NCBI RefSeq assembly: GCF_021155765.1
Contig: NC_060105.1
Span: 434,001 to 498,000, forward strand
Reading direction: 5' to 3'
From: Diprion similis
Lineage: Eukaryota > Arthropoda > Insecta > Hymenoptera > Diprionidae
Length of the DNA: 64,000 nucleotides
Positions 1 through 33,735 of the stretch are shown here, one piece after another. The notes beneath the pieces are model-generated. The model worked only from the letters and a program-made list of their open reading frames with translations. It had not been told where the DNA came from and searched no databases. Both the position numbers and the translations under genes were made by a program. Position 1 is the first letter of the stretch; each line of letters begins with the position of its first letter.

Positions 1-244
1 CAAACATAGAGAAAACCAAAATTAGCAAGACTTTGCAATTAAGTTCATTAGGACTACAATTTGTTTTGTATGTGTGAATAAACATGAAAGATCAGTCCTA
101 AGTAAAATATTGGATCGATACCAACTGAATACAAATGGAAATAAATTCATGCTTTGTACCTAAATTGATTAATTGTAAATATAAAAGGCAGGATTGTTTC
201 TATAAAGAATAGCAAAGTGTATAGAAGTACAGCAAGCGATATAC

Positions 245-573
245 CTGAGTTAATAAGGTTAGCGCTTCTAAATTCAAGCAAAGGATGCTCAAATATTCTT
301 TGATGTTTCTTGTTAAGCCATGCTGTTTGAGGTGGTACCTTGTCGATTACTCGGACATATGATACCAGCTCATTATCCAATAAATATTCCACAAGGTTCC
401 GTCCGATAAAACCACATCCTACACAAAGTTGATAAGATTATGAATGGCGAGAAGGTTGACTGTGCTGAGTTTCTTTATTCAGCTTCTTCTGTCCCAACAT
501 AGCATATGAATGATAAGTGATTACCTCCCAGAACGATTACTCCTGGTTTTGTATCAAAATTGACAGTTTCCAT
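245..573 (-). CDS. NAD(P)-binding Rossmann-fold protein, epimerase/NmrA-like, 5' part
   Basis: Two exons are visible: 525-573 (start ATG at 573) and 245-418, joined in phase 1. The gene then runs off the left edge after a GT donor at 243-244. The join gives a glycine-rich loop VLGGCGFIGRNL around residues 14-25, which is the GxxGxxG dinucleotide-binding turn of extended short-chain dehydrogenases. It is followed by YLLDNELVSYVRVIDK, the second beta strand, whose aspartate fits NAD binding. The frame-continuous hydrophobic tail read past residue 74 is intron. The family resembles an insect NAD-dependent epimerase/dehydratase-like protein of unknown substrate. About 74 residues are seen, too few to fix the enzyme. 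The gene is divergent from the receptor gene at 1838. Confidence 0.65.
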
Positions 574-1837
574 TGCTGATGACCATTCGAGGGGTAAAAA
601 AGGCAACCGGGTAAATGCAATTATTAAGAAACTACGCGTATTATAGTACAACAGAATAAACGCTTAAACAATGTAACGAGCAATTTGTCATCGAATACAC
701 GGAGTGTCGAACGAGGGCCCGATTTGATAAACTACGTATGTCAACGTCCTTCTTATACCACTAAAGGATCTCATAACCTCGCAAACCAAGAATGAATTAC
801 TGTCTGACACTACGACTCTAACGAGGATTTGGTACTGGTACTGTCAGGAAGTCGGACTGATCCACCGATCTCCATGCGAGCTGCAACGAGCTGTTTGCCC
901 AAACCGTGGAGCATATACTACTGGACGTTACGTAGCTACCCATGCCGCCAACCTCGCTGGCAATAACTGCAGCCGAAGTGATGGGCAAGCGAGATATATA
1001 CTCGGGATACTCCGTCTCTCTCACTCTGCGATTGATTGGCTGAGTGGAAACGTATCAGCCAACCAGGTGTAGAGCAAGAGAACAGGCTGTAACGAATATG
1101 TCCTCGCTCTCCCTTGCTCACTCCTCCGCCATACTTTATGTACACGCAAGGCTACCGCCAGTGGTATATCTGAAGATCCTACGGAAAATTTCTCATGCGA
1201 AGACCTTCCCTTATCTACTCGTCTATTTACGAACTTTGGGTGGATCCAGGTGTAATTTTATTGTTTTACACTTACGGTCCGTCTTGTGTTAAATCTCCCA
1301 GCGTTAATTCCAGTCAGCACAGCAGAACACTGCAATTTTCCCCCCGTCCTCAGCGCCCCCTATCAAGCCCTTACCCACGGAGCAAAGTTCACACGGTCAG
1401 TAGTCTTTATACATTCTCAAGTCGTCAGTGCTCGGTCATGCAGACTTTCCAATCTTGGTAATTGGAATTAACGGCGTCATGTAGTGCTGGTCGTCTATTG
1501 TCACTCGCGTGTATTTGGCGTATATTTTTATAATAACTACGAGGATATTCCATCACTATTTCTCAGAAACTTTATCACAACACTACAGATACGCATCGAC
1601 GATCGCATACGTATATTTATTCATTGTATCTGATTGTGAATAAGATATTGAGTTCAAGAATCCACGAAGTTCTGGGCCAGTAGCATTTGTGTGTCCTCGG
1701 TGGATAAGTGAATGACATGAGGCTGTGTTGTGCGCGGCTTGTTGAGTGAGAGAAATGTGTCGCCGAGTGAATTACTACAAATTGCTCAACAGCTAATAGC
1801 CGCAAAATTACTGTTATGCTTCTGTGATCCTATTACA
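574..1837. other. Divergent intergenic/5' region
   Basis: No convincing coding exon on either strand. It separates two head-to-head genes and should hold both promoters and the untranslated leaders. Only short unsupported open frames are present. Confidence 0.6.
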
Positions 1838-4800
1838 ATGCCTCCGTATTTGATGATACTACCATGCCTACTGGGGTTACTAGGTACATTCCAAGTATTA
1901 TATGTACACATATCGAAATTCTTTCGTAACAGTCGCTAGTTGCCCGTTTACACACTCGGCGATTATACACTGGGATGTGTATCGTGTTTCCCAAAATTTG
2001 TTGATTCAACGCCAGTATCCCTCCATCGCTCGAAAAATTCATGTTTTCGAATGACAGAATGCAATTTCTGTTTGACTCTCTGATTAATGAGTTTTGTCAT
2101 GAAAACACTATACCACCTACACATATACATTGCTGGCGAGGAATTGTTTTTTCGATTCTTGCTTCAGCAGCAATTGAACTCCACTAGTTGGCGCCTACAT
2201 CTGATAGTCTATACTTTTTCTTATGTTTTCAAGCGTAGGGCGAATATTTACGAGTACGTTTCATAATATTCTGCGGGCTTGTCTGGAAGAAAAAAAGATT
2301 TGATCCAATTTACTTATGTTTACAGGCACATCATTTGCCCACGATGTTAAGGGAGTAACGTATTGCGAGTTTTACAATGAGTCTATGTGTGTGGACCAGC
2401 AAAAAAACTGTTTTAAACAAGAAGAATGTAGTCCCCAAGAATCTGAAAAACGTAATCACTGCTATGTACTTTGGGAAAGAAATAGTACTACTGGACAGAC
2501 TAATATTAAATTAAAGGTTCTTACATGTTTAAAATTCCTATGTCTGGAGTTTGCCTGATTAAATGCAAAAGAATCTTAACTAATGTCACGTATTCGTGTT
2601 ACTTAACAGGGATGCTTCTTAGATAATAAGGATTGCTATGACAAAGCGCAATGCATTGAAAAGAGAAACGAACGAACAAAATTGTTTTTTTGTTGCTGCG
2701 ATGGAAACATGTGTAATCAAAATTATACATGGGATCCTACGCAATCACCTCTACAGACCGATGATGATCACCCAGACGGAGGTGAGTCAATTTTTCAAAA
2801 TTTGTGAAACACATGTTGTAAAATACTGCTTGACCTTTGAGGAATGGTGGGAAAAAGGAGGTCAGACAATAGTACGGTAGAAAAAATTTGAAAACAAAAT
2901 ATTTTAATATTTTTACACCTCTGTGCAATTCGTTACTACAATAAACTATTTTTCATAGAACGTGAACCAGTTCCAGTAAACGATGAACAGCATTACATTA
3001 CTATTGTTGTATCGGTCTCTATTCCGATGTTATTACTTGCATTCATCCTACTCAGCTTATACTGGTTTTATCGACAACGTAAACTAACCTACTTCAACGA
3101 GGTAAATTTTTTATACCTGTTTGGATTGCGAATTCATCGAGATAATGGGCTTTGATATACTCTCATTGATATTTCAATGTCTAGGTGCCGACATTAGAGC
3201 CTTTGCCATTACCACAACCTTCCCCAAATTTGGGTCTACGGCCAATTCAACTCTTAGAAATCAAAGCTCGCGGTCGTTTTGGGGCTGTGTGGAAAGCACA
3301 GCTGAAAAATGATGTTGTTGCTGTCAAAGTTTTTCCCATCCAAGATAAACAATCTTGGCAGTCGGAGCAAGAAATATTTAAACTGGCGCATATGGATCAT
3401 GAAGACATATTACGCTATATAGGAGTTGAAAAGCGAGGGGACAACCTTCAAGCTGAATTTTGGCTAATAACTGCGTATCATGAGAAAGGATCGCTATGTG
3501 ACTTCCTTAAGGCTAATGTTGTCACATGGCCTGAAATGTGCAAAATTGCAGAGTCTATGGCAAGGTAGAATAGATGATAAGTTATTTAAACTCTGATGAC
3601 AATTTGAGCCATATCTTTGATTTGGCAGCAGAAGGGCCTAATTATGAATATCTACTTTATTTAGGGGCCTAATGCATCTGCACGAGGAAATACCAGCAAA
3701 TAAAGCTGATGGATACAAGCCAGCAGTCGCACATCGTGATTTTAAATCGAAAAATGTTCTCCTCAAAGCTGACATGAGTGCCTGTATAGCTGACTTTGGG
3801 TTAGCTTTAATCTTTCATCCTGGGAAGCCATGCGGCGATACGCACGGACAGGTAGAGATAGTATGAATTTTATGCTATTTATTAATACAATTTAGAAACA
3901 AGGTCAAAGTTCGTTAGACTAACACAACGAAACGTTGAATATTATTGTTCGGAACTTTTAGAATTTGTTTGTAGGGATAAGTTGCAAAGCAAGTATAATG
4001 CTCTCTCTCACTAATAGTCGAGGACTTACTGCATTTCTGATAATACGAAAGTTGCAAAATAAAAATCTTCATGCCCTCTCGTCTTCCGTTAACATTATAA
4101 ACTTCAACCTTGTATTCTCGAAACTAAACTCTTCAACACAGCAAAATATTGTTCGCGAAACAAACACACGTACCTATATCAGTGTGTATACGCCATAGGT
4201 TGGTACCAGACGTTATATGGCACCCGAGGTACTGGAAGGTGCAATTAACTTTACCCGTGATTCTTTTCTGCGGATCGATATGTATGCTTGCGGATTGGTA
4301 CTGTGGGAATTAGCATCGAGATGTACTGTCCAAGATGTAAGCAGTTTTTGAAATTATTTTTCCATTCATTCGTTTTCACACTTGTAATGCTGTCGGCAAT
4401 TGTCAAAAAAATTTTAAGTTATCATCTTGTTTACAACAGGGTCCCATTGGAGAATACAGACTTCCTTTTGAGGAGGAAGTTGGCCTTCACCCAACATTAG
4501 AAGACATGCAAGAAAGCGTTGTTGTTAAGAAGGAACGCCCCCTCATATTAGAAACATGGCGAAAGCACCCGGTAAGTATCCCAACTGCATCAAGTTTCCT
4601 TTTTAATTTTCATTATTTACTCATTATTACTTTTCTTTTTGTCTGACAATCCCCAGGGTCTCTTATCACTCTGTGATACAATGGAAGAGTGTTGGGATCA
4701 TGATGCTGAAGCTCGATTGTCGGCATCGTGCGTTATGGAGAGAGTTGTTACTCTAGGCAGAACGTTACATCTTAACTCATCTACTTTGATACGCATGGAC

Positions 4801-4842: not shown

Positions 4843-6182
4843 TTAGTTTGTATGTATATTAGCTGTAGCCACACAGCACAACAACCGCTTCCCGTTCTAC
4901 ATTGCTTTATGTGCCAATCGGGAGCAATCGTAATCATGAGGTCAATTTTTATTTAATATTTGGCAACAATACACATTTGGGACACATCTTCACAATCATT
5001 AATATAGCATGACTTGATACAGTTGTAACACTATCATAATATTATTTATTGCCAAACTCATTGCAACTTTCAAAAATTGTTACTCTGCTAACTCTACTCG
5101 ACATCAGCCTGTTCCAAACTTTTATTAAAATGTCGTAATTGTGTCCCATTGGTCACATACTGTCCAAGATTTATTCAATTCGTGGTGCTTGTGCAAATTG
5201 ATAGTATGACAAATTATTTACAACCGATAGCAATCAAATAGGTATAGGCTACTCAAAACGAGGCAGCTGGCCCAAATGCTCTACAATGAATTGTACCATG
5301 GATTTGTGGACAAAAGCATGGGTAAATGTATGTTTGGGATATACCTATTTTGCACCTGTGAAGAGAAGAACAATCTTCTAATTTGACCAGTAATCAGTTT
5401 GCTACTCTTTCAGTAGAATGATTCATTTTCTCCCCTATAATTCTGTATGAGTCATTTCAGTTCACAATTGTTACCTGTGTAATACTACCTATTCACTTCA
5501 TCATTGTTAGTGAAATCTGAAACATCACAGCAGAACTTGTTAATTGTTGAGACACATATCTGGATAAATTTACGAAAATGAAACAGTGGTTCAAAAAATA
5601 TTTAGCTTGCATTAGCAGCAATTAATCCTAATATATTGAATGATGCAACATTGAGTGGAGTACATAGAAAGATGCAAGTACCTTTATTTTATTTGAATGA
5701 ACTGAATTTTCCAAAATATACACATAACTATTGAAGCTGTTTTTGAAATCTTGTCTCTTCTCTTCTCTTGTAACAATTGTTTGGTACTCAATACAATATC
5801 TATTTTTAGGATGGTGTAATTTGCAGATTGAAGTGAACTTGTTTGCTTCTTGGTGTTTAAGATTAGAGACAGAAAATCGACTGTCGTTGTTCGCCAGACT
5901 TGAAATTAAACATTGCAAAAACGCGAACCCGTTTCTAAACATTTCGAATTTATGATTTTCAGGCTTGAACAGCAATCAAATGAAGATTTTTTAAGCTGAA
6001 GTTTTTGTTAATGTCAAGGCACTCGTTTCTCTGTTTGAAGCAGATTTCAAGTGAGTGTCTTTGGCACTACTTAAAAGTTTTTACGTTCAAAACTTTATTT
6101 AAATATGACTCGTTTTTCAACAGTGTAGCTTGGTATACATGCGTTACACATGTGTGTCAGCAAGTAGGTGGGTGAGTCTGCC

Positions 6183-22950: not shown

Positions 22951-25056
22951 ATGGCAAACTATTTGAGAAAATGTATTTGGGTAGCGCTCGTTGCAAGCAG
23001 TTTATTTATTATTTCTCAGGTAAGTTAATTATGCATGTATTTAAGTGTAGTTCTCGAGGAACTTTCATGATAAAATGTTAAGAATTTGTGCCACATCAAT
23101 ATAAATTTGTAAATAATACGAAGTATAAAATATTTTCATTTCTATCATAGTTTTGGCTGATGCGCACCTACGAGGATTATGAAATACTATTTGAAGGTGA
23201 TGATGTGTATAAGTATATTAACATATTTTTTTAAATATTATGGTAGCATACTTACTAATTAGCTCATAATTCCATTCTCAGATATCAAGGTTCCAGTGAT
23301 ACTGTGGTGGACACCTTTCACCGGAAATCAGGGTCGATTGGAAAACTGCGGTCAAGTCAAGTGTTATTTCACACAGAATCGGAACTTTGTATCGCACAAT
23401 TTGCTCAGCGTGAGTCAAATCTTACTACGCTTTCAAAAGAATTTATCCTATATTACTATATCATCTATTTTGTAAAAAATCGCTCAATGGTTTTCACCAT
23501 TAATTGATTTTGCTTGTTTTTAGACCATTTTATTTTATGGTAGTAGTATTGAATTCGAAGATTTACCTTTGCCGCGGAGAGGTAGTATTGACTGGGGACT
23601 ACTGCACGAAGAATCACCTAGAAATATTCCGACGCTAACATCGGAAACTGCTCTTTCTTTATTCAATCACTCAGCAACTTTTAGTCGGTTTAGTGACGTA
23701 CCACTGACTTTAGTTGATTTAGACAGTGAAGAAGACTTGATAGGTACAACTCTTGAATTAAGTGTAAAAGATTGATCTTTGAGAATGATGACATATCAAT
23801 ATTAATTAAAAATTTTATAGGAACAAAATATTTTGTATCATTAGAGAAGAAAAACAGATTAATAAGGGAGAAACAACTCGCACCATTTCTGTACATTCAA
23901 TCAAATTGTGAGACAGCCAGCATGAGAGATTTGTACATTAAGGAACTCATGCAGTATATTTCCATTGATTCTTATGGTGCGTGTTTAAATAATAAAAAAC
24001 TCCCAGAAAGGTAAGCTTGGTTATCAACAACCAGATACTGCTAAAGTTTTATATTTCTATAATTTATAAGGTAACCACTATTTACCAAGCTCTTTGTTCT
24101 CCAAGATTACTACCTGTAGATTATAGTTGTGGACTTTTATATCATACAAGCCAGCAGCAAGTAGTCTTCAAAATCGCAAATGATACTTTTCTAATTTCCA
24201 TCATAAACTAAATTCAAAGAGTACATACATTCAGAAGATCAGTCAGTAAGTTATGACATCTGCCTTACATGACAATGTTCTTCGTTTGTTTAGCTTGAAA
24301 CGAGACCATGTGAGCTCCTTAAAAGACAGTGAATTTCTGTCGTTGACATCTCAGTACAAATTTACGCTAGCCTTTGAAAATGCTGTTTGTGATGATTATA
24401 TTACTGAAAAATTATGGAGACCGCTAATGGTTGGATCAGTACCGGTATATTATGGCTCACCATCTTTCAAGGTGGTAAAAATGTTTGAATCTTTTAATGG
24501 TTTGCTATTTAACATTTCTATATGTTCTTCAACTTATTTATGTATTTCATTTGAAAAACTTGATTTGCAGGATTGGCTACCGAATAAAAATTCAGCTGTA
24601 TCCGTGAGAGACTTTGCAGGGCCTAAGGAACTTGCAAATTTCTTGCTGCTGCTGGCAACAGATGAATCGCGCTATCGCGAGTATATCTCGCACAAGATAT
24701 CTAGAAATCTCAACGAACGAATAACGAATCCTCGTCTACGGAATGCTCTTCGTAATCGGGACAAAAGTGTCCCGAATGAATTTGGGAATTACGTCCAGTC
24801 ATTTGAATGCTTAGTCTGCCAAAGATCATTCGATAATGCAAATTCTTACATTGTCAATAAGGAGCACTACAATTGCCCGCTACCCGTGAATCCGCTGACC
24901 AATACAGTAGATAGAAGCAATTTTTGGGTGGATGAATTCATCGTTGGTAGATGCAAAGCAAAATTATTGGCACAACTAGTCTTGCGTAATATCAGCATTG
25001 ATCGAGAGAGTTTTCATCAACAATTGTTAACATTCAACCCAGAAAGAGATTGCTGA
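22951..25056 (+). CDS. FUT10/FUT11-like fucosyltransferase (GT10)
   Basis: Seven exons: 22951-23019, 23151-23196, 23282-23409, 23524-23743, 23821-24010, 24294-24471, 24571-25056. They give 438 residues. Residues 1-4 are cytosolic and about 5-25 form a signal anchor, as in type II secretory-pathway glycosyltransferases. VPVILWWTPFTG opens the GT10 N-terminal domain. The GT10 nucleotide-sugar motif is FTLAFENAVCDDYITEKLWR followed by PLMVGSVPVYYG. The family transfers fucose from GDP-fucose; FUT10 and FUT11 have been reported as protein O-fucosyltransferases of the ER. The C-terminal part has paired cysteines (CLVCQRSF) typical of the FUT10/11 branch. Exon 6 starts after a pyrimidine-rich acceptor at 24293. 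The ORF-internal ATG at 24253 is intronic. Confidence 0.92.
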
Positions 25057-25978
25057 TATAACAACATTGTTCTTAATTATGGTATATTTACTTCTTGAAT
25101 TCTATATCAAAGAAAGAAATCATAATTACTTTTCTTCAGTACCACTCTACAGAGCTTATTAAAATTGTGCAGATTTTGCGAGGGTAACACTTCTATTCGG
25201 GTAACAGTCTAGACGTGGAAAGGATCGAATTGAATGGTTCAATACCAAAGTTTTCACAATCAGTGACGACATCCATTGAATGAAACTGACTGCAAATCGA
25301 GAAAATTATTTCCTAAGTGACAATGTACATTAAAATTAACACAGATACATCGATTGGATGAATAATATACTGAATCCTCAATTTCGTCCACTGCACAAGA
25401 TAGAACTTGATGCGACCCTACGTAAGTTGTGCTGATTTTCCATCGGATGCAACTGAGCTTGCACATCGATAGAGGGTGTTGCCTAGAATCAGGGTTCAAC
25501 CACTGGAATCAGTGACTGAAATGCATGAAATGTAATACTGAAATGCACAGCGTACTGAAGATGAAGTCACACGAAGATAGGACACGAAGTGCACGCGAGG
25601 TCTCGTAACTCGAAATCGCGATATCGATTTTTGCCGGTTGGTCGGTGTATGCCGTGAATTGGCAATTTGCATTAAATAACACTTGAACCTAGAAAGGTAG
25701 TCTTGAACAACACTTCCGACGACGACAGATAAATTCTGAATTTATATAACTTCATCCGCATAAATTGTTGTGATTGGATGGTACTGAGTACAGACTTATA
25801 ATAGATACTGAGGCAACCCTGTCGTTAGGTTAGGGCAAATACAGTGAACCACATCGAAAAAAAAATCACTTCTAATACGGTCTCCGAAAGTAACCTACGT
25901 TAGAAATTCTAATTTATAGAGGTTAAAAGTTATATTGGTCAAGTTTCAAGCAGGATATTTCCCTGTAATATTCCAGTC
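25057..25978. other. Intergenic region
   Basis: FUT10-like 3' flank plus MIC19 promoter and leader. No coding exon recognised. Confidence 0.55.
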
Positions 25979-26914
25979 ATGGGATCAAGTCAAAGTGCCA
26001 GAAAGTTGACCATTTCCAATGATGAGGTAGTCGGAGTGATTCAAGTGTCAGACGCAGTTGTCCAGCGACTTCAGGGTGTTGAGGATGAAATTGGATCCAA
26101 GGATGTAAGGGATGCTCAGCCATCCAATCTGATGTCACTGCCCAGTGGGGTTCCAATACTCCCTGGTCAGGGTGCTCCGTCAAATGGAGTGGCAGTTTAT
26201 CATTATCCAGAATATACTATATCAGCTCTTGAAATCCAACAGCAGAAAGAGGAAGAACTCAAGAGCCAGGATCAGTACTGGCAGCGACGTCTTCAAAATT
26301 TGGAAAGAAATCATGAAAAAATTGATACTATCATGGCAATCGAGTACAAGAAAGCAGTCAACGAGTTTACAGATGGTAATTGAAAAGCAGATTTATACAC
26401 TACTCAATTGCAAAGGTGTAATTATCCTAAAAATGTGATTCTTCACTCTTAATCGAAATGTCAAATCAAATGTATAAAATTACTGCAACAACCTTAGCAG
26501 GATCGTAAAATGTGATTGCTAACATCTAAGGCTATTCATAAGCTAACTTCAGTTACAGATTTCATTTTTTTGTACTCCTACCACTGAGTGAAGAAACGTA
26601 TCTGGAAAATTCTCCATAATTAAATTGTGGTTTGAATTTGTTAGGCTTATATTTCTCTAATATAACGTCCGATCAAACCTGCTGTAGAAGTTCCAAACAT
26701 CTACTTTCATTCCGCTCAACTGATTATGTGACATGTAGGTAAAAATGCTCCGTCTACCAAAATGCCGAGACCTCCCTGCATTGAGAATAGCACCGAAGTA
26801 CTAAAGTGCTATCAAGAAAATCCCAAGGAAATACTAAAGTGCTCCACTTTGGTTGAAGAATTTTCCAACTGCGTGGATCAACGTCGTGCAAAAATCATCG
26901 CTGCTCGATGCTGA
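25979..26914 (+). CDS. CHCHD3: MICOS complex subunit MIC19 (CHCHD3)
   Basis: Two exons, 25979-26375 and 26739-26914, joined in phase 1 to 190 residues. The start MGSSQSARK is a consensus N-myristoylation site, as in CHCHD3. The middle is a charged helical, coiled-coil stretch (EIQQQKEEELKSQDQYWQRR). The C-terminal CHCH domain has a twin CX9C pattern with cysteines 146, 156, 167 and 177, the substrate of the MIA40 disulfide relay. The protein sits on the inner mitochondrial membrane in the intermembrane space and helps hold cristae junctions. It is slightly shorter than vertebrate CHCHD3 (about 227). It is convergent with the channel gene, 367 bp away. Confidence 0.95.
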
Positions 26915-27281: not shown

Positions 27282-30200
27282 TTAGTAAAATTCTGTCATC
27301 TGGGCAATTCTATCAAAAAGGATTATTCTAGCAGATGGAAATTCTGCAAGTAAATCTTTCCATGCATCTTTGTGCAAGCTCATGACGTCAGTCACTGTTA
27401 GTGCAATTACATCGTTGAAATGAGGAAGAGCTGTAGTTACACCTTGTTTAACCCCGAGAATACTTCCGAGCCCTCTTGTACTGGGCTTAGCCTTGTCGAA
27501 AATTTGAACTTTTCCAGAATGTATAAAATACATTGTATGGTCGACATCACCAGCCTGAACAATGTAATTTTTCGGAAAATAAACACAGCGATTCATTCTA
27601 GCTGTGAGCTGATACAGGAAATCTTCGTGCAATCCATGAAATACTTTGGATTCGGTCAGCAAGTAGCCATATATGTCAAACATAATTTGATTTTGTAAAA
27701 AATTGGGCATGCTCAAAATCATGCTAGGCATCCATGCCCCTTGTTGTCTCAGCCACTGCTGCAAACAGTATTCCCATATTCGTTGCAGTAAGATAGGAGA
27801 GAGAGATTTACTCTCCATAAATGAGTAGAGCCTTTGAACTTGGATTTCAAAATTCGTGAACGTGTGCTGAGCAAAGTGAATGAGTGTAGCCAAAGTTGTT
27901 AGTAAATTCAATGCCATTATTTGATAAACTAGTATCAAAAATATTGTTGCCAGTACTTCGGGTATTGTGGTCGGCTGAACGTCATGTGTTCCAACTGCGG
28001 TCAGTAGATCAAAATTATACTGATAAGCTAGAAGCATGGCCTCGAGTCTTGAGGTGACAAGGCGCTCTTCACGATTTGGAGGGATATTATGCTTGCATCC
28101 TGATTTGCGACATGCAATCAATATCCACAGACAAACACCCATATGAACAAACAAGATATTTGTCATGCAAAGAAACATACTACGCTTCACTGGATTTACG
28201 TGCAATCGCTGTTGTTGCTCGGTTTGATAATGTAATACGTGATATAATCTAAGAAGTCGATTTAACTTCAGAACTGTAAGAAGTGTAGCCTTGACTCGGG
28301 ATTCGTCCACGGAATACGCCAGTACTTCAAACGGAATACAGCACAGCAGGTCTAGCCAGAATAAGTTCCATTTAACAAAGTATTTCTTTACCGTCCGCTT
28401 GTAACTATTAATGGAAGCATTTGAATTTTCGTCATCAAGATTTGTGTGAAAGCCAACGAATATCTTGATAAAGAAACAAAAGTCACAGGTGTAAATCAAG
28501 GAATTAACAGGCATGGTTAAAACTTGCAAAGCAACTTGAGATGTCACTAAATACACACTAATCACCGATATAGGGACACATATAATCCAGTGCAGATGTT
28601 TGTACCATCTCGACTTTGCTGAAATACAAATTAGCTCATAATGGGTTTTACTGTTGAATTTTACTTTCTTTTCCGAACTCTCGAAGTTTGACGCTATTGC
28701 AACTACATCCACAAATTCTGCATCCATTGCCGTGGCGCGAGATATTCTTTCCTGTATAACGGGAAAATGATCCAGTACGTTATAAAATTCTTCAGCTGAT
28801 ATAACAAATAGGGAAGTATGGCCAGATGCCATCATTTGCATTGTGTGTCTCACAGGCTTTTTTCTCCTGAACGAGCCAAAAATACCCCCAGGTCCAAGTG
28901 AGCAGATCAAAGTATCATCAGCTGCCAAAATATCAACGAATCCACTCTTGATAATGTAAATGTTACCTTGGACCTGGTTGCGTTGAATAATTGGCGTTTC
29001 CTTGCGATAGCACGTGTCTTCAACTTGACAGGCCAGTAATCTTGTTGCGCTAAAATCCTGGTCTTTGAGTAGATTAACTTTGGCCAATGCTGGGCCATGC
29101 AATTCGACGGCCACCTCTTCATGAAGTTGGGAGGGTAAAGTTCTGAAAAGCTTCTTCCAGTTCAATTCTTTGGAGCACTTCCAACGGTGTTCCACCTCCT
29201 CGATAGATAGCAGTATTAATTCTGAAGAGACGTCTTCGTTTTTCAAATATCTGAGCATAGCTTGCATCTCTTGACGGTAATCGGTGGGACTAAGATCCCC
29301 TCCAACTTTATTGGAGGTAATCTGGGCAATCATCAACCACCATGTAGGTATCAAGGTCATGCAAACTAGCATGATGACGATCATTTCTAGAGTTGTCACC
29401 ACTAATATTACCCCATTACCACAACGAAACATAAAGGTAGAGTGAAAATATACAGATATCAGGTAGACTGATAAAGGATCGTTGTATTGTTTAAATTGAG
29501 ACATTGAAAACCAGGAGTATGAAGTACATTCAATGTTGTGATACACGCCGTTATTATGTAGAAATTCACAGTTGTACAGCATATTAGCGCACGACAAAGC
29601 ATTCAGCATAACTCCAGTTGTCAGTAAAAATCGAAAGTAAGCCAAAGGCTTGTGATTATGCTTGATATCATCCTTTACCGTGGCAAATCTGCCAAAGATC
29701 CGAAAAAGTAAAAGCGGCCGTGTGATTAAGTAAAACCAGGCCTTTGTCAAATGGGTATTTTGACTACCGAATGTATTTTGCAGTCCAAACAATTCCAGCG
29801 GCGTACTCGTTATAATGTCTGTAATAAAACTAGTGGTCATGTAATGCAATGTGGTACAGAGAGGATGAGTGACGATAATGCCGTTTTCGTTGTAGTAAGA
29901 AACGTGCAAACGAAGATAAATATCTACAAACCCTACAATGTCGAACATGTAACCGGCTAAACGTGCATGAGGATACAGTACTAGCGATGTGAAGAAGTTT
30001 GGATAAAATAATGCACTTAGAAAACATACGACTTCGCGGAATTCTTCCCAGTGCTGGAATTTTTGTCCATGCGGATTTATGCCACGTCGTAACATTAAAT
30101 GACGAATAAAAGAAAACATTCCTATTCTTTTGAAAGGCGTCATATAATCCGAGATGATTGCTCTTTCATCTAAATTTGCCCAGTTTGGGTACCTGGTTAT

Positions 30201-33200
30201 TTTGTTCCCCCCTCTTCTTGCACTCAAGTTTTCTATAGTCTTACCAGTGAAATAACTGTAGTCGATAGCATTCTCGAATTGGGCTTTGAACTCAGGAAAC
30301 ATGTTGAGGGTATTCCAGAAATCGGTTCGCTGTATTGATATGATCTCACACGTTGTTATGGCATGTATATCAGCCAGATTATTAGTATCGTGCAGAAATT
30401 CAATGACCAGTATCATTGATCCAGGGCCAATGATTTCGCTTCTGTCCCTGTCCACATCGCTTGGTAATGCAGAAACAACTCGGCAGTATCCGTTTCGTAT
30501 TACGTACATAGCCGTGTTTTTCAAGCCGGCTTGGGCGATCATTGTATCTTTCGTAAGGAGAAATACCTTAGCCTTTTTAGCTAATATCTCCAAAAAACTT
30601 TCGTCTCCTCTGTAAAATATAGGCACAGATCTCAAAGTTTTCATGATGCTGTGTATAATTATTTTATCATACAGATCTTGAGATACGTTGGTTAACAATC
30701 TTCCGTTGGTATTCATGTTCAATTTCTTATACTCCCATTGCGTACCGAGATGATCTCGAACACGAGATATAATGTCAGATGAGTTTCCACGAAGTCTTAA
30801 AAATTGAGTGACCAAGTCGAGGTGCTCTGTGGCAGAATTTTTACTCTCGTAATAAATTATGTGCGTTGCTCCCAATTCAGCACAAAAGTAAACGTACATA
30901 ATTAGACTTAATATTATTCCTCCATCCAATTCTAAAATCTCCCAATTGTTTCTAGGCACCAATTTAGAAACACCCAAACTTGTTAAGGTATTAAATACAT
31001 AGTACATGGTAGTTATTAAAGGATTATAGAACAATTCCTTTTTACCATAAGTCTCTTCTTCGTGGTTGGTGTAATACCCAATCCACGAATCTACACCACA
31101 TCCCCTTAAGCGACAACTGCCATAATATGTTGCAGTCGCCAGCCAATACGCAGCAATTGTGTATGTAAAAACTGACCTACACGATTTCAACAATTCTACA
31201 TTGGTTTCTGTATGTCCTTCCAGTTTTAGTATGTACTTGTATAATCTATAAATCGTCAAGAGTCTGTTCATTCTGTAAGCCGAATACGAGTAATAAGGTA
31301 CACCTTCTGTAGAAGAACGAGTTCCGAATATCGTCATGAAAAGTTCTATCGGCAATGTAACAATAATATCGATGATGAAAGACAGTGTCTGTAATCGTAG
31401 TCTCAGTAAATGTCCAATGTCGACTATTCGGAGTCGATTCTCCAGCTTTACTGCAGTGGAAGCTTGTATAAATATATCAATACTTTTAGTTATGACAAAC
31501 ATAGTATCCAATAGTAGGAGCCAATTGGGGAGTGTTAGAGTAAATGTTATGTAGTATGGATACAATAGAATAATGACAACAGATACAAAGGCGTTAAGTT
31601 TTTCCCACCAGTTGAGAAAGTTTGATTCTGGTTCAAGAATACACGGGCAGTTCATGCTCAAGCATACGGCATTTGACATCAATTCCACCCTTTCACTCAA
31701 AGCTAATAATTCAAGGTATCGTGAAGTCTTTGTTCCATCGATTGGTATTAAATCTAGTGAGAAGTGATTGTTACCATATTTTGATGCCTCTTGAATTACG
31801 TGCCATTGCGTTTTCATCCAACTGATTCCATTACGTTCTGATATATTTTTATAATGTCGTACCTGCCCGTGTTTCAGTCTATTTAGGTTTTCAGCAATCA
31901 CAGTGCGTGCAGTTCGTTTATGGTGAAGATGAGCTGCTACTTTGGGATACAAATTCAATAGCCTGTAAAGACTTGTCGCATCCAATATATGCAATTTAGA
32001 ATGAGTTGCGGTACGAATGTCTGCTCGACACGTCGAGGGTATGAGTAGTTTTCCTTCACCTAATACAGTCCCACTTGATAATGACAATATTGGAGTTTCT
32101 GCATCATCTTCGGTTAATACTTGCAAAACGCCAGAAGCTATGTAGACCATTTTTGCTGAGTATCTATGAACAGAATAAATTATTGAGACAGAGTATCAGA
32201 GGATCAGTTGTAAGCTGACATACCACCCTATACGCTTTTGACGTTTATTACACTGTGCAAAGTTTGGAAACGCGTTTTTGTGAGAGAAATGAATGAAAAA
32301 TGATGACTCCGAATAAAATTCATGTACACGGCGATTGATTTCAAACTTTCTGTTCCAATGATTGGCGAGGCCATTTATTTCGTGGCAAAACTATTTTCAC
32401 CAACACACTACTAACCTGTTTACCCGAAACACATATTCACCCGGAAGGAAATATTGATGTCTGATTGCACAGCTGAGGGCACGTTTAAAAGCTATATCTT
32501 GGCTGCGAAACAACTGTGAATGTCGTAGCATCTCCCAGTGAAGATCAAGTTGAACTGAACGACGCAGAGGGCCAGGTAGCGCATGGAAGAACTCTGGCAT
32601 TTCTCTAATTCCAGCTCTATTTTCCAGCAGTGTCAAATGGTATAGATTCAGTTGGTTTCTCAAATAACCAGATGCACCCCAAGATTTGACAAACTCTGCC
32701 TCGGACCTGAAATCATAATTTCAAGTCATAATTGATTGGACTGAATTGTTCGATTGCAAAGTACAGAAGTGTGGGAATAGAACAATGCAGTACCTCCGGT
32801 ACTGCTTACTTTATTTCCAACATGAATGTAAGGTGTCTCCACATATTTCTCCTAAAAATGCTGACTAGAAAAGCGTAGAACATGGATTTCATGAAAAATC
32901 CAGAGACCATAACAAAACTGAAAAAACACCATTCTCTAGGTACAGTGGCTGAAACGTTTCCCCGAGCATTGTTCCAATTAACAGACATCACAACTGTAAT
33001 TGCTGCTAAAAACTGATTTATCTTTTTAGAAGTGTCGAGGACATCAGTTGGGAAGCTGTAGGTCCAGTTCATCTCTTCGCAATTCCAGCATGCCATGGCA
33101 TGTAATAACGCTGCTAAAATATGCCCTAAGACGAGGTACATTGTCAAGTAGACCATTGCAAGTTTCCACAAATTTCTAGCACCAATTGCAGATCGATATT

Positions 33201-33735
33201 CCAGAAAATGTAGTGGCAAGCGGTAGATTCTAAGTAATTTGTTTGATAAAAGTGCACTGTATGCTGCCTGCCGAGTGAGTTCTTTACTGGTATTCCACAC
33301 ATCGTAAATCAAGTTCAATGGTATTAATGAAGTTATATCAATGACAAGTAAGAGCCAATTTGTAGGCAAGTACTGTCGCATCTCTCGTATCCTGGTAAAC
33401 ATGTTATGCACTATTCTCAGGATGGTATCGGTCATGTAAATGACGTCGCAACTTGGTATGATGTAGTATTCTGGTATATACATGGTAGTATCTGCACTGT
33501 ATGCAATTTTGTAAATTACAGCGAGGATCAAAAGTATGACCGACATCATTACCACTTTGGCAAAAAATGTATCAAATGGTAAGAATATTGCTTTCTCCCA
33601 ATTAATGCCTGAATATTGTTGTTCAAATTTTGACTCTGAGTTCTGACTTGTGTTTTCACGTAGTTTCGTAGCATTACTGTCACTCATATCCAGACTTGGT
33701 TTATTGGGCCTGTTATCTATACCTTCCACTTGCAT
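27282..33735 (-). CDS. Four-repeat CNG/HCN-type channel-like protein with altered pores
   Basis: Three coding exons: 32810-33735, 32416-32706, 27282-32163, joined in phase to 2032 residues. Each of four repeats has six hydrophobic segments, a pore re-entrant region and a C-linker plus cyclic-nucleotide-binding-like domain. Approximate starts of S1: 57, 598, 1115, 1597. CNBD-like regions lie at about 396-480, 940-1030, 1460-1550 and 1934-2015. S4 segments carry a few spaced Arg/Lys (for example LSNKLLRIYRLPL and LKLNRLLRLYHVL), as in CNG/HCN channels. The layout matches the single-chain pseudotetrameric CNGK channels known from sea urchin and zebrafish sperm. At the GYGD position the repeats read NWNN, GVSK, GNGV and GTHD, so none keeps GYG or GFG. 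The first ATG in frame, at 33735, was taken; a farther upstream exon is possible. Conduction and ligand are unknown. Confidence 0.85.

Follow-up and report, generated by a model that had tools for sequence, protein, structure and literature searches.

A gene on the minus strand of a 64,000-nucleotide stretch of the Diprion similis genome (hereafter the window; contig NC_060105.1, here C1) encodes, at 33735-27282, a single chain of 2032 residues built of four channel-like repeats, each with six transmembrane segments (S1 to S6) and a cyclic-nucleotide-binding domain (6TM-CNBD), and in none of the four is a GYG or GFG selectivity filter found. As judged by alignment, this gene is homologous over nearly its whole length to a second four-repeat gene of the same genome in which all filters are intact. 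The explanation that we place first, and hold with about even confidence, is that the window gene would be a paralogue, intact and probably old, of a K+ channel of the CNGK type; its pore would no longer conduct K+, and the protein would be kept for its voltage sensors.

The gene comprises three exons without internal stop, with a start ATG at 33735 and the stop codon at 27284-27282. The model was derived from minus-strand open frames at 33801-32806, 32720-32397 and 32195-27282, and both junctions (32810/32706 and 32416/32163) are of the GT-AG type. Exon 3 is open throughout its 4.9 kb, and between 27282 and 32195 the remaining five frames hold 85 to 127 stops each. The corresponding features, in window positions, are:

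27282-33735, minus strand: whole gene, four-repeat protein of 2032 residues (open frames and splice junctions).
32810-33735, minus strand: exon 1, N-terminus and S1-S6 of repeat 1 (open frame; donor AAA/GTAAGC; Ion_trans match of 24 bits).
32416-32706, minus strand: exon 2, the C-linker and the initial part of CNBD 1 (acceptor TTTCAG, donor CAG/GTTAGT).
27282-32163, minus strand: exon 3, remainder of CNBD 1 and repeats 2 to 4, intronless, including the stop codon (open frame; PDB matches to KCNH2, SthK, CNG and HCN).

Four 6TM-CNBD repeats on one chain, the architecture by which CNGK channels are recognised, occur at residues ca. 46-492, 569-1050, 1076-1548 and 1587-2032, the transmembrane part of repeat 1 lying just below the Pfam cut-off (Ion_trans, E-value 2.7e-5, 24 bits for a cut-off of 25). 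Pfam detects four cNMP_binding stretches in the protein of the main exon, with four six-frame matches above cut-off. No Ion_trans domain is reported by hmmscan for repeats 2 to 4, and repeat 4 scores 47.3 bits, above cut-off, in a six-frame search of the genome. Repeats 2, 3 and 4 match PDB chains of KCNH2, SthK, CNG and HCN across the pore and the CNBD; for the stretch of repeat 1 encoded by exon 1, nothing relevant was found in the PDB up to an E-value of 1, and repeat 1 aligns with repeat 1 of three paralogues (see below) in a MAFFT alignment of the four genes. The three joined exons and the PDB and Pfam matches thus bear out an earlier, first-pass annotation of the locus, which had described a four-repeat single chain of 2032 residues in an open frame. 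The S3 aspartate and the turret cysteine pair are both present in 4/4 repeats, as are segments corresponding to the pore helix and S6 in the gene. The S4 segments, located by alignment, are listed here with the number of basic residues that fall in the scored S4 columns:

33217-33246, minus strand: S4 of repeat 1, SNKLLRIYRL, 3 basic residues.
31242-31277, minus strand: S4 of repeat 2, YRMNRLLTIYRL, 4 basic residues.
29697-29726, minus strand: S4 of repeat 3, ITRPLLLFRI, 3 basic residues.
28239-28268, minus strand: S4 of repeat 4, KLNRLLRLYH, 3 basic residues.

The filter was defined as the six columns occupied by T-V-G-Y-G-D in K+ channels, and the register of repeat 1 was taken from two unguided MAFFT alignments, one of the four genes and one of all 16 repeats; in the latter, all 16 filter segments share one column. 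In the list below, the segments of the intact paralogue (C2) are given in brackets:

32956-32973, minus strand: repeat 1, NNARGN (C2: STGFGG), from the four-gene and 16-repeat alignments.
30963-30980, minus strand: repeat 2, SLGVSK (C2: QTGYGD), from the alignments; opposite SVGFGN of KCNH2.
29409-29426, minus strand: repeat 3, RCGNGV (C2: CIGFGD), from the alignments; opposite TIGYGD of SthK.
27981-27998, minus strand: repeat 4, AVGTHD (C2: TTGFGD), from the alignments; opposite SVGFGN of KCNH2.

GYG or GFG is therefore found in 0/4 repeats, whichever register is taken for repeat 1, and the earlier statement that all four filters are altered holds. The positions that had been given for them stand for three repeats, GVSK and GTHD lying opposite GFGN of KCNH2 and GNGV opposite GYGD of SthK. 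For repeat 1, the proposed NWNN (32979-32968) lies four residues too early and was rejected, both alignments placing NNARGN in the filter column, so that the equivalent of GYGD is ARGN (32967-32956). The first glycine of the filter is retained in repeats 2 to 4, with G-x-G in repeat 3. The filter segments contribute basic residues in repeats 1 (Arg), 2 (Lys) and 3 (Arg), and three of the four are net positive.

When the exon-3 protein was compared with its own genome (269 Mb), 17 matches were obtained at an E-value of 0.01 or better: the gene itself, six on contig C2 around 9.37 Mb, two groups of four on contig C10 (around 5.34 Mb and 15.02 Mb) and two at other sites. The three multi-match loci all read as four-repeat genes, so that, of four CNGK-like genes in the genome, one has K+ filters and three lack them:

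C2:9364574-9375620, minus strand: paralogue C2, spliced alignment, 20 introns; filters STGFGG, QTGYGD, CIGFGD and TTGFGD (GFG/GYG/GFG/GFG, 4/4).
C10:5328953-5344396, plus strand: paralogue C10A, spliced alignment, 21 introns; filters GHGFPE, GVGINV, RIGDVN and AVISSR (GYG/GFG in 0/4).
C10:15018040-15028635, plus strand: paralogue C10B, spliced alignment, 27 introns; filters SHGTIE, GIGTPI, RVGVEE and GGSTTR (GYG/GFG in 0/4).

These models (1996, 1979 and 2016 residues, respectively, without stop) were built with a purpose-written spliced aligner, iterated and corrected at one junction; they are guided by alignment, their start and stop codons are not established, and their N-terminal exons (the first one or two of each, and S1 of repeat 1 in C10A and C10B) are weakly supported. 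The correction concerned repeat 1 of C10B, in which a weak 53-bp intron was rejected upon reading of the DNA and replaced by a GC-AG intron placed as in C10A, giving SSHGTIE. This intron (donor GCAAGT; L013:5901-5977) splits the filter region, and C10A has a GT-AG intron there. The window gene is 22.6% identical to C2 (1934 aligned residues), 21.8% to C10A and 22.7% to C10B; for C10A against C10B the figure is 33.4%. The window gene shares the four-repeat architecture of C2 and differs from it in its filters and in having 2 introns instead of 20. Its relationship to CNGK channels, already proposed in the first-pass annotation, is supported by the full-length homology to C2; the description of the protein as a single oddity is not supported, the loss of all four filters being common to C10A and C10B. 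A search of prokaryote and virus collections with the main-exon protein returned no relatives, which carries little weight given those collections.

Scored per repeat, S4 holds 3, 4, 3 and 3 basic residues in the window gene, 2, 3, 2 and 4 in C2, 3, 4, 3 and 3 in C10A, and 2, 4, 2 and 3 in C10B; turret cysteines are absent from repeats 1 and 4 of C10A and C10B. Conservation was compared in six-column windows pooled across the four repeats, windows below 80% occupancy being excluded. Between the window gene and C10A/C10B, NRLLRL in S4 tops the 377 windows (30/48; median 0.21) and the filter (9/48) falls at the 38th percentile. When repeats were compared with each other within each gene, the filter ranked 1/369 in C2, 181/379 in the window gene, 152/369 in C10A and 57/379 in C10B, and the ranks of S4 in the same four genes were 81, 2, 1 and 17; in the window gene S4 reaches rank 1 with nine-column windows and S3 ranks 6/379. 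Filter identity lies at the gene-wide background both between the window gene and C2 (6/24 vs 22%) and between C10A and C10B (8/24 vs 33%), the filter of the latter pair being at the 42nd percentile with six columns and the 70th with nine.

The two residues in contact with the cyclic nucleotide, Glu and Arg, were sought at what we take to be their positions in HCN2. Read by eye from the alignments, none of the four CNBDs of the window gene keeps both: repeat 1 has GE and a Cys for the Arg, repeat 3 has Ser and His, and repeats 2 and 4 have neither. For repeat 3, the region concerned is:

28842-28895, minus strand: phosphate-binding-cassette region of CNBD 3, with FGS for FGE and His at the cassette-Arg position (SthK alignment).

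Because this pair of contacts is lost in all four CNBDs, gating of the window gene protein by cyclic nucleotides is unlikely. Both residues occur together in 0/4 CNBDs of C2 as well (by eye), and the C2 channel too may perhaps not be gated in this way. As described in the available part of PMC4749565, zebrafish CNGK is gated by pH, and its CNBDs likewise mediate no gating by cyclic nucleotides; of those in sea urchin CNGK, only the third is functional.

As to the history of the four genes, a tree of the 16 repeats (442/537 columns kept) clusters the repeats by repeat number across the genes, which indicates that whole four-repeat genes were duplicated; it included the four genes of this genome only. 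C10A and C10B have 13 intron positions in common and in phase, for a chance expectation of 0.4, in a comparison that used the C10B model from before the junction correction. In the same comparison, one intron (column 391, phase 0) sits at exactly the same place in all three paralogues and the window gene lacks it; the two 5' introns of the window gene are private, being found in none of the three. For these reasons the window gene looks like an intron-stripped old retrocopy that would have gained two private introns. The filters of C10A and C10B agree in some replacements, both having His and Glu in repeat 1 and Arg in each of repeats 3 and 4, and since both genes are devoid of all four filters and have the 13 introns in common, their ancestor had probably already lost them. 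In repeat 3, Arg occupies the filter-Thr position in the window gene, C10A and C10B, and Cys does so in C2, which favours a single filter-less ancestor. When the same gene order was imposed on all repeats, within the best repeat arrangement and under three models, C2 as sister to the three filter-less genes was best by 4.5 to 6.7 log units over the other two orders. A tentative scenario, to which we give less credence than to the explanation placed first, is that an arthropod lineage gave up the single central pore of this former K+ channel once, before the filter-less family split, with Arg set in the repeat-3 filter, and that the proteins were kept for their four linked voltage-sensor domains (VSDs), which would either signal in response to voltage or let protons pass.

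The proposed mechanism would start with the whole-gene duplication of a four-repeat CNGK-type gene giving rise to the intron-poor window gene, in which the four VSDs, the pore helices, S6, the C-linkers and the CNBD folds would have been kept and the K+ filter lost in all four repeats. The repeats would surround a single central pore receiving Arg, Lys and Arg from repeats 1, 2 and 3, respectively. A K+ current is improbable because of these basic residues and because no K+ sites are expected without GYG or GFG, and the pore is probably shut. What remains is the voltage-sensing part together with the cytoplasmic gating ring, and the protein would then act through its voltage sensors: it would either switch conformation in response to voltage or pH, or offer a proton or ion path through the VSDs, as in the closest precedent, zebrafish HCNL1. 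The four-repeat architecture, the open frame, the loss of the filters, the retained S4 charges and S3 Asp, and the presence of one canonical and two filter-less paralogues are observed; non-conduction of K+, a VSD-based function and insensitivity to cyclic nucleotides are what we infer for this protein. The first-pass annotation had proposed either a new selectivity or a non-conducting sensor; the pattern leans to the latter, because S4 is among the best-kept segments, the filter is conserved no better than average and three filters carry basic residues.

Several observations weigh against this explanation. Between C10A and C10B the best-kept windows lie in the CNBD and S4 is at the 96th percentile; the CNBD also holds them between C2 and the other three genes, where S4 reaches the 96th percentile, or the 72nd with 13 columns. 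C10B shows the S4 effect weakly (ranks 17 for S4 and 57 for the filter), and the S3 Asp is replaced by His in repeat 4 of C10A and C10B. The comparison of S4 with the filter is uneven, S4 being the best of several start columns and the filter of fewer or one, and the Leu- and Arg-rich composition of S4 may inflate identity. S6 is poorly conserved in every comparison (14-24%) and therefore does not separate a dead pore from an altered one. The rate of non-synonymous substitution (dN) between the window gene and each of the three paralogues is 1.03-1.10 and the synonymous rate (dS) is saturated (proportion of synonymous differences 0.73-0.77), which renders dN/dS between paralogues uninformative. 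The open frames of C10A and C10B are those of spliced models, in which a short predicted intron could conceal a disruption. A single filter-less ancestor is not significantly supported, every alternative having an approximately unbiased p value of at least 0.13, and in the unconstrained repeat tree the gene order disagrees between repeats. Finally, an AlphaFold prediction of repeat 4, for which repeats 2 and 3 plus the exon-1 segment of repeat 1 served as alignment, reached a mean predicted local distance difference test score of 41.4 only, and the model was not used.

Among the alternatives, the one that survives best, although we regard it as rather unlikely, is that the central pore conducts with a new selectivity (non-selective cation, divalent or anion) through the asymmetric ring NNARGN/SLGVSK/RCGNGV/AVGTHD. 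The pore helix, S6 and the turret cysteine pair in all four repeats would fit such a pore, as would the first filter glycine in repeats 2 to 4 and the G-x-G of repeat 3. Metazoan CNG channels with TIGE conduct cations. The presence of TIGE in place of the K+ consensus in these channels, documented in the available part of PMC7576140, is a further point in its favour. A selective pore should, however, keep its lining, and the filter columns are conserved no better than average both among the filter-less genes and between repeats; moreover, three of the four filters are net positive and each of the three filter-less genes has a different ring.

That the window gene is decaying under selection relaxed after duplication, on its way to a pseudogene, appears improbable. 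It has the longest terminal branch in each repeat clade (1.21-1.38 vs 0.76-1.08 substitutions per site, a comparison made slightly uneven by the common stem of C10A and C10B), its dN to all three paralogues is about 1.0-1.1 with dS saturated, and it has lost both its filter and the Glu/Arg pair of the pocket for the nucleotide. Against this, 2032 codons are open without frameshift despite divergence to 22% identity, S4 and S3 are among the best-kept segments (ranks 2 and 6 of 379), and C10A and C10B, filter-less and at 33% identity, were also modelled without stop, hence such genes persist. The earlier view that the gene is not a recent pseudogene is upheld, because its reading frame has stayed open although identity to each paralogue is down to about 22%.

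No greater likelihood is given to a role as a currentless regulatory or dominant-negative partner of the C2 channel, which would pair with or titrate the C2 protein or its trafficking. The two genes share architecture and genome, and non-conducting relatives that regulate conducting channels are known, such as the silent Kv subunits; a four-repeat chain is already a whole channel, however, and co-assembly is less natural for it than for single subunits. Least of all is it to be expected that the gene model mis-joins exons of separate genes: its two junctions were called from sequence alone, yet both are GT-AG, a single unbroken frame covers repeats 2 to 4 and the joined CNBD 1 aligns with CNBD 1 of the three paralogues, so that a check for joined fragments found none and this artefact was rejected.

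With respect to known systems, CNGK (tetraKCNG) channels have been described in a choanoflagellate as well as in marine invertebrates and fish, and their filters are GYG or GFG (PMC4749565, available part), in agreement with what the first-pass annotation had said of them. The window gene resembles CNGK of sea urchin and fish sperm in that one chain carries four 6TM and CNBD repeats (PMC4749565, same part), and differs in that CNGK keeps GYG/GFG and K+ selectivity. Judged by its filters, it does not qualify as a CNGK channel in the working sense; its architecture and its homology to C2 make it a CNGK-like paralogue. CNGK homologues have no obvious specialisation among their domains according to the part of PMC6259924 available, unlike the filter-less family of this genome, which does show domain specialisation. 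In a broad survey (PMC7576140, available part), strong departures from the filter consensus are rare and confined to individual channels, metazoan CNG channels with TIGE being the sole exception at the level of a clade. The sequence list of the 2015 CNGK tree names no insect CNGK in the part available, its Drosophila entries being EAG and Shaker (PMC4749565), and no report of filter-less CNGK-like genes or of an insect CNGK was found in open-licence literature, judged mostly by titles and the openings of abstracts. The present data place a CNGK-type gene family in an insect genome. In HCNL1, a proton channel of zebrafish sperm, the pore domain is non-conducting and protons pass through the VSD, as stated in the available part of PMC11700363. 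The likeness to this CNBD-channel relative with a silent pore and a working voltage sensor is one of proposed working and not of membership; each HCNL1 subunit is shown there with a single VSD-pore-CNBD unit, whereas the window gene has four repeats on one chain. The window gene is thus a test case for the idea, taken from HCNL1, of permeation via the voltage sensor. Four-repeat channels are usually regarded as pores, and here three genes have lost the defining feature of the K+ pore, by one or more losses. With the voltage sensor among the best-kept parts and a sister gene with intact filters beside them, they offer a natural experiment on voltage-sensing chains without a K+ pore. A role of the window gene in sperm would be a guess by analogy with known CNGK channels and HCNL1; none of the 11 Na/H exchanger matches (PF00999) lies near any CNBD match of the genome, and a search for CATSPERB was silent, as was its control.

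The window (C1:434001-498000) begins about 434 kb from the end of its contig, which opens with telomere repeats of the TTAGG type, an arthropod-like feature. Around the gene, four frames resemble, as judged by eye, known proteins: BAP31 (35475-34562), ADAT1 (40189-39482), a CHCHD3-type protein of the MICOS complex (25913-26383) and an alpha-1,3-fucosyltransferase (24253-25056).

Elsewhere, three spots within introns of C10A (L011 at about 3650-3920; L012 at about 3720-4180 and 5620-5870) were seen by eye to contain similar translated fragments, which look like copies of one interspersed element. Upstream of C10B (L013, about 1-3030), frames recur every 312 bases by eye, resembling a tandem array, and the weak first exon of the C10B model sits at the edge of this apparent array.

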